40,470 bases of DNA, from the NCBI GenBank assembly GCA_016875195.1, contig VGRY01000037.1:1-40470 (forward strand), written 5' to 3'. The notes beneath the pieces were generated by a model. It was given only the letters and a program-made list of their open reading frames with translations. It had not been told where the DNA came from and did no database searches. How positions within the stretch are numbered: position 1 is the stretch's first letter; each line of letters begins with the position of its first letter. Position numbers and translations under genes: made by a program. Source of the DNA: Deltaproteobacteria bacterium (GTDB taxonomy: Bacteria > Desulfobacterota > BSN033 > UBA1163). Below are positions 15,447 through 18,241 of the stretch, one piece after another.

Positions 15447-15734
15447 TTATCCCCTTATTCTCCGGAGTTCCATGACCATGGGATTGAATGGATCTGGGCA
15501 GGCGATCGTGGTCATATCTTTATCCTCTTCCCATGGGAATTCTCCTCCGTGGCGGAGCACGCGCCATGAGGGAAAAACCGCATGAAATGCCGAAGGACAG
15601 AGGGTTGTCTTTTTTCCTGATACTCCAAGAGTGAAATCCTGGCTCAGATCAAATTCCTGGCCCACATAGTGTCCTGCAGCGCAGGTCCCTTTGACCGAAA
15701 CAATCTTTAAAATAACCTTTTCCGGATTTGCCAT
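15447..15734 (-). CDS. TIGR04076 family protein
   Basis: A 95-residue protein with the family pattern V-K-G-T-C-A-A-G-H near residue 14-22, L-C-P-S-A-F-H-A near 46-53, the G-G-E-F-P-W-E segment, and A-C-P-D-P-F-N-P near the end. These conserved Cys and His residues look metal- or cluster-binding, but the family has no known function. A clear AAAGGAGG lies upstream of ATG 15734. It is on the same strand as the rubrerythrin and dismutase genes. Confidence 0.85.
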   Translation of the reverse strand: MANPEKVILKIVSVKGTCAAGHYVGQEFDLSQDFTLGVSGKKTTLCPSAFHAVFPSWRVLRHGGEFPWEEDKDMTTIACPDPFNPMVMELRRIRG

Positions 15735-15966: not shown

Positions 15967-16677
15967 TTACTGCAACCTCGCTTCGGCGGTCTTCCAGTGG
16001 ATATTTTTAAAGAAGGCTTCAATGTAATCCGCTCTTTTAAGGCCGTAGTCAATCATAAATGCATGTTCAAAGACATCCAGTATGAGGATGGGCGCACACC
16101 CAGCGGGGTGGCCAACATCGTGTTCGTTGACCCAGAAGTTGATGAGCTTTCCTGAAAGTTGATCCTGATACAACACTGCCCAGCCAATCCCACGTATCAT
16201 GCCTGTAGCCTTGAAATCTTTCTCCCATGCTTCGACACTACCAAAGTCTTCTGATAATTTTTTAAAGAGTTTCCCGGTCCTATCCAGTCCTCCCTTACCT
16301 CCGAGGTTTTCGAAGTAGAATTCGTGAAGTCTCATGCCGTTGAATTCCCATCCCAACCTTCTCTTCAACTCAGCATACTCCGTGGAATTCATTTTTCCAT
16401 CCCTGAGCATTTGACCGAGCGTATCCAACAATTTATTGGTGTTGGTGGCATAGCCCTGGTAGAGGGCGAAGTGGTTTTTGAGGAGGGTTTCGCTGAATCC
16501 TTCCATGCCCAAAAGTCGGGTGTAATCTTTCGCCGTATAAGCCATTTTCACGTCGCCTTTTGCCTGAGCGAAAGAGCGTCCGGGCAACCCGGACAGAAGT
16601 CCAATGCTCCCAAGACCTGAGAACATTAAAAACGTACGCCGGCTTAAAATCCATTTATTCAGAAATTCTTCTCCCAA
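15967..16677 (-). CDS. Exported Fe/Mn superoxide dismutase with Tat-like signal
   Basis: A 236-residue iron/manganese superoxide dismutase with an N-terminal extension of about 40 residues. The extension has a twin-arginine S-R-R-T-F-L at 12-17, a hydrophobic core and an S-F-A cleavage-like site at 35-37, pointing to export. All four metal ligands can be placed: His69 (N-H-F-A-L-Y), His118 (L-H-E-F-Y), Asp201 and His205 (L-D-V-F-E-H). The usual Trp of D-V-W-E-H is Phe here. The start is TTG 16677, preceded by GGAGAG; no upstream ATG fits. It follows the 53-residue candidate selenoprotein by 22 bases and is probably cotranscribed with it. It would remove superoxide in the periplasm. Confidence 0.88.
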   Translation of the reverse strand: MGEEFLNKWILSRRTFLMFSGLGSIGLLSGLPGRSFAQAKGDVKMAYTAKDYTRLLGMEGFSETLLKNHFALYQGYATNTNKLLDTLGQMLRDGKMNSTEYAELKRRLGWEFNGMRLHEFYFENLGGKGGLDRTGKLFKKLSEDFGSVEAWEKDFKATGMIRGIGWAVLYQDQLSGKLINFWVNEHDVGHPAGCAPILILDVFEHAFMIDYGLKRADYIEAFFKNIHWKTAEARLQ

Positions 16678-16699: not shown

Positions 16700-16861
16700 T
16701 TAGCCTAAGGCCAAGATCAACCCCACAACAGCGCCCAGCGGGACACTGACATAGGGGTTGCAAGTTAAGGCTCAGGAACTTCCAATACCACGGGTGAGGT
16801 AGCTTAGAAGAAAACCAGCCAGGCCGCCGATGATTAAACCTAAAAAGATTCTTAAAATCAT
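16700..16861 (-). CDS. Candidate selenoprotein: small DUF6132-like membrane protein with in-frame TGA
   Basis: ATG 16861 follows an ideal GGAGG and opens a two-helix protein. TGA occurs at codon 30 (16774-16772), but the frame continues as A-L-T-C-N-P-Y to TAA at 16702-16700, giving 53 residues if read through. Small two-helix proteins of the DUF6132 type carry C-P-[IL]-T-x-N-P at this point, so TGA replaces the conserved Cys, as expected for selenocysteine. Downstream of the TGA the RNA can fold: an outer CAACCCC/GGGGTTG stem and inner CAGTG and CCC stems topped by a GCT loop that starts 32 bases after the TGA, within the range for bacterial SECIS elements. The alternative is a nonsense mutation or sequencing error. 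The dismutase gene follows. Confidence 0.6.
16718..16760 (-). promoter_or_regulatory. Candidate bacterial SECIS hairpin
   Basis: On the minus strand CAACCCC (16760-16754) pairs with GGGGTTG (16724-16718); inside, CAGTG (16748-16744) pairs with CGCTG (16733-16729) including one G-T, then CCC with GGG around the triloop GCT (16739-16737). The loop begins with G, as bacterial SECIS loops usually do. It is read here by eye, not folded by program. Confidence 0.45.
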
Positions 16862-16999
16862 AAAGTCCTCCTTTTTTAAGGGTAGCATTGAAGTAGGATT
16901 TTATCAAGGAAAGTTGAAAAGAAAGATAGGGTGATGGGAAGGTTGGGAATGGGAGATGGTGTGATTTTTTTCTCCTCAACGCCCCATCTCCTTATCTCC

Positions 17000-18241
17000 C
17001 TATCTCTTTTTCGGGGAGAAAGCGTAAAAAATGACGCTGGCACTCATCCCTATGAAGCAGATGAGAAAAGCAAGGTGATAAGCCTCAGCCGGATAGGCAT
17101 TGTTCATCCGTGGAAAGGATTCGATCACTTTTCCAAGGGCTGGCATGAAGAGGGCCGCCCCTGCCATCGTGAAGAAATTGACATACGTCATCACCGTCCC
17201 TGAGATCGAGATGGGAAAAGAATCTTTGGCGTGAGCGTAAATCGACATCACAGAGCCGTGGAAGAAACCGATAAAGAAGAAGATGAGACCAAACAGAAAA
17301 GGATGTTCAATTTTCCATAAACCGATGAGGGGAAAGAGGCTGATACAGTAAAGACTCAATCCCACCATGGCAACGCCCTTGCGCGATTGAGCGTAGCGAT
17401 CCGAAAGACGCCCTCCGATTGGACTTCCCAGAATAACACCAATAGCTAGCAGGATCAGGAGATTTCCTGTCTGCACAGGGGAAAACCCCCTGATATAGAT
17501 CAGATAAGGCCCTAACCATAAACCCTGAAGGCTGACAAAGACACCATATCTAAAAAAAGCGACTACCCCGAATTGCCAAAAGGCAAGGGAGCCGATGATA
17601 AGGCGAATCGATTGAAAAATTCCCATCTCTGGTTTATCGGAAGAAGAGGTGATTCTGCGGTTCTGCGTCTTTTCCCCCCTTAAGATCCAGAAGACCAGGA
17701 AGCCGAGAAGTATGGTGATGAATCCGGTGATGATAAACGTCATTCTCCATCCTATGGTAGACGTTAGATAGGCGAGGGGAGAGGCGGCGAAGATATTCCC
17801 TGTGGTTCCCACAGCAGAGATCATGCCCACAAGGGTGGCAAATTGCTCCGGAGGATATCGAAGGGTAAAGGTTTTAAATGCACCCATCAACATTGGAGCC
17901 ATTCCAGCCCCGATCAATACTCTTCCCAAGAAAACGGCATAAAACGTGTTTCCAAAGGCGAATAGAAAGGCTCCAAGGGCTCCGACGAGGCAGGAGAGAG
18001 ACATGATCATGCGAGGACCGATTCGGTCGAGCATCGGTCCCATGGGGATCTGGAGAAGGGTAAAGGCATAGAAGAATGCGCCTCCGAGGATGCCCAACAG
18101 TTCTGCGTTCAAGCCGAGATCCTGGATCAGATTGGGGGCCATCACTGCACTGGAGACCCGATAGAATTGAGAGAGGGTAAAAAGGGCTGAAAGAATAAAG
18201 AAGAGGAGAAAGTGGTTTGACGTTTGAGAGGTTCTGGCCAT
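17000..18241 (-). CDS. MFS transporter
   Basis: A 413-residue major facilitator protein with twelve predicted membrane helices. The first half has F-Y-R-V-S-S-A-V-M-A-P and the inter-helix motif L-D-R-I-G-P-R, and the second half the matching G-G-R-L-S-D-R, both variants of the MFS A-motif. The family alone does not give a substrate; the N-terminus resembles organic-anion or nitrate-type members. The start lacks a strong ribosome site. It lies on the same strand as the dismutase group, about 140 bases upstream of it, and is divergent from the ABC operon at 18645. Confidence 0.9.
   Translation of the reverse strand: MARTSQTSNHFLLFFILSALFTLSQFYRVSSAVMAPNLIQDLGLNAELLGILGGAFFYAFTLLQIPMGPMLDRIGPRMIMSLSCLVGALGAFLFAFGNTFYAVFLGRVLIGAGMAPMLMGAFKTFTLRYPPEQFATLVGMISAVGTTGNIFAASPLAYLTSTIGWRMTFIITGFITILLGFLVFWILRGEKTQNRRITSSSDKPEMGIFQSIRLIIGSLAFWQFGVVAFFRYGVFVSLQGLWLGPYLIYIRGFSPVQTGNLLILLAIGVILGSPIGGRLSDRYAQSRKGVAMVGLSLYCISLFPLIGLWKIEHPFLFGLIFFFIGFFHGSVMSIYAHAKDSFPISISGTVMTYVNFFTMAGAALFMPALGKVIESFPRMNNAYPAEAYHLAFLICFIGMSASVIFYAFSPKKR

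Follow-up and report, generated by a model that had tools for sequence, protein, structure and literature searches.

The window analysed here, a stretch of 40,470 nucleotides at its full length, carries on its minus strand an open reading frame with a single internal TGA (16700..16861). The frame starts at the ATG at 16861, runs through 29 codons to the TGA (16772..16774, minus strand), and continues in the same frame through 23 codons to the TAA at 16702-16700. A ribosome-binding site, AAGGAGG, lies at 16867..16873 on the same strand, with 5 nt between it and the ATG. The original prediction had named a strong ribosome site, an ATG, 29 codons, the TGA, 23 further codons and a TAA while leaving the strand unstated, and we found all of these elements on the minus strand. 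With the TGA taken as a selenocysteine (Sec) codon at residue 30, the predicted read-through product has 53 residues, MILRIFLGLIIGGLAGFLLSYLTRGIGSS-U-ALTCNPYVSVPLGAVVGLILALG, in which Cys34 (TGC, 16760..16762, minus strand) is the putative resolving partner of Sec30 in a U-x3-C arrangement. A SECIS-like hairpin (16718..16760, minus strand) lies within the codons that follow the TGA.

Both flanking genes are on the same strand. An Fe/Mn superoxide dismutase gene (15967..16677, minus strand) begins with a TTG 22 nt past the stop of the predicted selenoprotein gene, and the SRRTFL leader of its product, read from the sequence, is presumably of the twin-arginine type. Upstream lies an MFS transporter gene (17000..18241, minus strand), which was a neighbour in all eight loci of the genus.

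Conservation of the in-frame TGA

With the window protein as query, a search of 148 relatives' genomes gave 25 rows at E<=2.6e-4, of which 24 had one internal TGA (15 in the window's family) and one was a stop-free remnant. Rows from E 0.006 on were mostly stop-free and chance-like, and one of them, G130:C48, turned out to be a family member. In the genus of the window, the gene was present in 8 of 10 genomes. A profile of 23 members was also run against 395 genomes of the phylum (E<=3.2e-4), where it identified 43 homologues, spread over 41 genomes and 13 family codes. Each of the 43 had one in-frame TGA, and the profile search of these 395 genomes returned no homologue with Cys at the Sec position. 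Because the survey profiles write C at the Sec column, any homologue with Cys there would have been expected to score no worse. Excluded from the phylum survey were the remnant, which ranked next (E 9.8e-4), and seven rows of lower significance, with E between 0.0039 and 0.0099. When a wider profile of 44 rows was applied to the same genomes, the identical 43 loci were recovered, and the one additional match, weak and interrupted by both a TGA and a TAG, was dropped.

The working set used below comprises 45 loci, namely the 43 from the phylum survey plus G005 and G016 from the first survey. The Sec codon was TGA in all 45, and a Pro stood six residues on in every one of them. As the TGA and the downstream frame are conserved in relatives, a chance origin of the window's TGA and open frame is excluded by this sequence comparison. 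Two genomes, G101 and G130, each had two different TGA-bearing paralogues (L105/L106 and L108/L109, respectively).

The stop-free remnant (G006:C52, L132:102-173) is a decayed partial copy of 24 residues that starts at the Sec codon and lies at a contig edge. In this copy the Sec codon is TGT and Cys34 is replaced by Ile, and seven codons separate the upstream stop from the Sec-codon position.

Coding selection downstream of the TGA

Among eight genus members, pN/pS was 0.210 before the UGA and 0.201 after it, and rose to 1.070 after the TAA. Similarly, fifteen family members gave 0.284 before the UGA, 0.294 after the UGA and 1.066 after the TAA. Synonymous divergence itself was lower after the UGA (pS 0.356 vs 0.611 before). 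Downstream of the UGA, stops appeared in frame +1 in 15 of 15 sequences and in frame +2 in 8 of 15. By these measures, purifying selection acts as strongly on the codons past the UGA as on those ahead of it.

We considered whether the TGA might be an ordinary stop, ending a 29-residue peptide or marking a decayed gene, with the downstream frame open by chance. Such a reading would agree with the use of TGA as a normal terminator in 3 of the 12 window genes checked and with the decayed partial copy in one relative. However, downstream purifying selection equals that upstream, the frame and the TGA are kept in 43 of 43 homologues, and a Cys before the UGA and a Cys after it are mutually exclusive in all 45 loci. 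We ruled out an ordinary stop codon or a pseudogene on the basis of the selection after the UGA, and regard the reading as extremely improbable.

Hairpin downstream of the TGA

The hairpin at 16718..16760 has an outer stem, CAACCCC/GGGGTTG, an inner stem and the apical loop CGCU. A hairpin following the TGA had been proposed and was indeed found, but its apical loop had been described as G-first and 32 bases away; in the MFE fold of the window the loop starts 31 nt past the UGA and has its G in second place. According to a 2026 review (PMC13188914), the bacterial SECIS (bSECIS) consensus places the apical loop mostly 16-37 nt from the UGA, with a G in the first or second loop position. The window's hairpin fits this model in both respects. 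Across the family, in contrast, 15 of 45 members missed even the loose bSECIS criteria set in this analysis, and 30 passed, against 17.2 expected.

The window hairpin was more stable than synonymous recodings (z -3.90) and than another codon-level null (z -3.41), while the 66 nt before the UGA, used as a control, gave z 0.05. Over the 45 loci, the mean z was -2.02, and 26 folds fell under -1.64; five folds were above zero and thus no more stable than the null, for example that of G130a (z +1.91).

Covariation was assessed on 18 sequences, with a structure of 17 base pairs derived from the fold of the window and with 500 shuffles for comparison. In these sequences 87.9% of cells were paired, compared with 34.6-45.8% when the structure was slid. 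Cells with double changes numbered 22 vs 9.8 in the shuffles, and the covariation score was reached by none of the 500. Two further counts showed only a modest excess: changes on both sides occurred at 8 of the 17 pairs, a count reached in 25 of 500 shuffles, and 19 further pair types were seen, a number reached in 20 of 500. RNAalifold, run unaided, predicted 14 of the 17 pairs; its covariation term was small (-1.29). In the outer stem, the third positions of Cys34 (TGC/TGT) and Leu48 (TTG/TTA) covary. Leu48 was TTR, never CTN, in 22 of 22 sequences, a count that is not a probability because the sequences are related; across nine genes of the window, TTR made up 76 of the 311 Leu codons. Taken together, the hairpin stands out clearly in the lineage of the window and is not uniform across the family.

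Selenocysteine machinery

The assembly that contains the window comprises 187 contigs totalling 4.08 Mb, with an estimated completeness of 87.21% and contamination of 5.11%. The search of this genome for selA, selB, selC and selD was positive throughout: tRNA-Sec scored 79.3 bits against a cut-off of 47, selB scored 361 bits, over its cut-off, selA scored 631 bits (E 7e-190) and lies about 2.2 kb from the tRNA-Sec gene, and selD scored 368 bits. As far as the assembly shows, the cell would be able to make selenocysteine, although at 5.11% contamination the machinery need not all be the window organism's own. The selD gene contains one in-frame TGA of its own and serves as an internal control, since SelD is a listed selenoprotein family in the review table (PMC13188914). 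The selD product (G000:C79:3123-4043) is probably a selenoprotein itself.

We identified selA in 40 of the 41 carrier genomes; the exception, G114, had no selA match and did have tRNA-Sec. This lends weak support, because selA is present in 355 of the 395 sampled phylum genomes anyway, and co-occurrence with the machinery was set aside as proof for the same reason. TGA is an ordinary terminator in this genome too, ending 3 of the 12 window genes checked, which rules out genome-wide recoding of TGA.

Probable Sec-Cys pair and predicted membrane topology

Within ten residues of Sec, each of the 45 proteins has exactly one Cys, never one on both sides and never none. This Cys stands at +4 relative to Sec in 29 loci, at -5 in 13 and at -6 in 3, and the window protein belongs to the +4 branch. 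A tree built with the Cys columns masked requires two changes of side, and well-supported branches force two; the tree is weak, with 50 columns and several long branches. The pattern likely reflects a Sec-Cys redox pair in which the resolving Cys may stand on either side, as judged from the sequences.

The AlphaFold model (mean pLDDT 84.6) has helices at residues 2-24 and 36-52, and the loop between them carries Sec and one Cys. A Foldseek search of the PDB returned 19 matches, none at E<=0.001, and the fold comparison was set aside. Four matches came from searching PDB sequences with a profile, the best being to an Rh blood-group protein (E 0.0081 over 24 positions), and these were not used either.

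We then summed Lys and Arg over the 45 proteins, obtaining 60 in the first six residues (the starts being approximate), 36 in the loop and 23 in the tail. The N-terminus had the higher count in 19 loci, an equal one in 25 and a lower one in 1. This charge bias weakly suggests that the N-terminus is inside and the loop outside. With the loop outside, a cytoplasmic thioredoxin could not reach it.

Relation to DUF6132 and catalogued selenoproteins

A kinship with DUF6132 (PF19628), a family that to our knowledge has no known function, had been proposed from the loop motif, and it proved weak for the window protein alone and firm through its relatives. With C at residue 30, the window protein matched DUF6132 at E 0.094 and 12.8 bits, below the Pfam cut-off of 23.2; with X at that residue no match was listed, so that the DUF6132 column seems to favour Cys. 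DUF6132 proteins of other phyla presumably have Cys at the Sec position, as the loss of the match with X indirectly indicates. Among the relatives, the best match reached E 9e-13, and 16 of 23 members matched at E<=1. Moreover, the DUF6132 profile found 12 matches above its cut-off in the 395 phylum genomes, and all 12 carry the TGA. On these matches, DUF6132 looks like a selenoprotein family within this phylum sample. The 12 belong to the branch with Cys at -5 or -6, which one profile joins to the window branch.

The window protein resembles DUF6132 in its length, its two glycine-rich helices, its loop motif and a near-full alignment (5-55 of 60). It differs in having Sec where the DUF6132 match wants Cys and, as a member of the window branch, in having its Cys at +4 rather than before Sec.

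The table of the review PMC13188914 comprises 119 catalogued prokaryotic selenoprotein families or subfamilies, and DUF6132 has no entry there. The present family shares with them an in-frame UGA with a downstream hairpin and, as in many of them, Sec near a Cys. The motif given in that table for TsoA (LULAxC, NF045695) shows the U-x3-C spacing of the window branch, but the TsoA model spans 144 positions and had no match at the family's loci in any of the 12 genomes tried. Identity with TsoA was thus ruled out. The one TsoA match above cut-off lay elsewhere, on another contig of G322: this gene (G322:C43:163174-163605, L171) scores well above the NCBIfam cut-off and has one in-frame TGA, in a genome that also has a member of the present family.

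The window protein had no NCBIfam match at E<=10, and the 12 NCBIfam families matched by the 23 members at E<=1 included no selenoprotein-named model. Our literature search, with preprints and most subscription papers outside it, found nothing that joins selenoproteins and DUF6132; the sole paper with DUF6132 that it found concerns nucleotide sugar transporters. The family was not found catalogued, and no earlier report of it was found within the literature searched. Very probably, these proteins are the Sec form of DUF6132 and make up a selenoprotein family that is new, with a Sec-Cys pair in a predicted two-helix hairpin.

The inserted residue is invisible to computation, and the UGA might be read through with another amino acid, such as Trp, by a suppressor tRNA or by leaky decoding. 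Several observations argue against this: TGA terminates normal window genes, the Sec genes are present in the genome, the hairpin is conserved, and the DUF6132 match is lost with X at residue 30, the column seeming to favour Cys. We consider insertion of another amino acid very improbable. Selenocysteine at residue 30, as the original prediction had it, is supported by the machinery, by TGA in 43 of 43 homologues, by coding selection after the UGA and by the covarying hairpin, and we predict its insertion there with great confidence. The locus very probably represents an overlooked gene for a bacterial membrane protein of 53 residues in which UGA is read as Sec.

Gene neighbourhoods and proposed function

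Using the window's dismutase as the probe (E<=1e-6), we found a dismutase gene as the same-strand downstream neighbour in 5 of the 8 genus loci and adjacent to none of the 37 loci outside the genus. A dismutase piece of 26 residues lies about 1.2 kb downstream in G014. The link to the dismutase held locally in this way but did not extend over the family, and the dismutase was ruled out as a family-wide partner. It had been proposed that the selenoprotein acts with the exported dismutase, removing in the periplasm the peroxide that the enzyme makes. The two genes are on the same strand and 22 nt apart in the window, they adjoin in those five genus loci, and the weak N-in charge bias would put the loop outside. 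However, the dismutase is missing in 3 of 8 genus loci and is not adjacent in the other 37 of the 45, G014 having only its distant piece, and such a partnership is unlikely.

Other neighbours differ from lineage to lineage. All seven loci of family f21 have a thioredoxin gene immediately upstream, and the spacing, measured in five of them, is 12-23 nt. A pyridine-nucleotide-disulfide oxidoreductase gene (Pfam Pyr_redox_2), whose product we take from sequence likeness to be thioredoxin-reductase-like, is found downstream in both loci of family f15. A rubrerythrin gene is directly downstream in G010, and a CGGC-domain gene is upstream in 2 of 4 loci of family f10. In genus g4, the next gene downstream at five loci encodes a galactose-1-phosphate uridylyltransferase, which is not a redox enzyme. 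None of the eight probe genes occurred in the flanks examined at 20 of the 45 loci, the flanks being short for some. Genes of the FmdB/Zn_ribbon_8 type follow the selenoprotein gene in 6 of 7 f21 loci (for example L114, L101, L103 and L112) and the thioredoxin-reductase-like gene in 2 of 2 f15 loci (L104 and L125).

A selenoprotein without a part in redox defence might instead handle metal or selenium, or assemble a membrane complex, with Sec and Cys as ligands. Exactly one Cys beside Sec would fit a two-ligand site, the neighbours vary, zinc-ribbon genes of the FmdB type are nearby (6/7 and 2/2 loci of two families), and the glycine-rich helices suggest oligomers. Against this, thioredoxin, a thioredoxin-reductase-like protein, rubrerythrin and superoxide dismutase adjoin the gene in separate lineages. 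We regard a role of this kind as possible, though doubtful.

The best explanation, which we hold to be highly likely, is an uncatalogued selenoprotein family with Sec at codon 30, forming a two-helix membrane hairpin with Sec and Cys in its loop. The RNA hairpin, which lies within the coding sequence past the UGA of codon 30, would direct SelB and tRNA-Sec to insert selenocysteine at that codon. In the protein, Sec and one Cys would sit in the loop that joins the two membrane helices. At the membrane face, the Sec selenolate may react with an oxidant, either a peroxide or a disulfide; the nearby Cys, at +4 here and at -5 or -6 in the other branch, would then close a selenenylsulfide, and a thioredoxin-type reductant would reset it. 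For thioredoxin as the reductant, together with an antioxidant role, we see about even chances. More tentatively, and at slightly below even chances, we propose a minimal membrane redox switch of about 50 residues, Sec-only in the phylum sample and served by thioredoxin, whose resolving Cys switched sides at least twice.

Gene prediction in which UGA always means stop would overlook this short gene or truncate it to 29 residues, and its presence at 43 loci in 41 of 395 genomes suggests that small selenoproteins of this kind can go unnoticed throughout a phylum. The deep-Sep authors state that every selenoprotein known so far now seems to have homologues with Cys, and that selenoproteins lacking them may escape their method; given that statement, it is unusual for a family to show no Cys form in a phylum sample. 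By its change of side, the Cys partner offers a natural experiment in Sec-Cys pairing. DUF6132, a family without an assigned function, gains a concrete chemical hypothesis.

Between the rubrerythrin and dismutase genes of the window lies a further small gene (15447-15734, minus strand). It encodes a protein of 95 residues with three Cys that had no Pfam match at E<=0.001, and a conserved counterpart lies next to the selenoprotein gene of G009.
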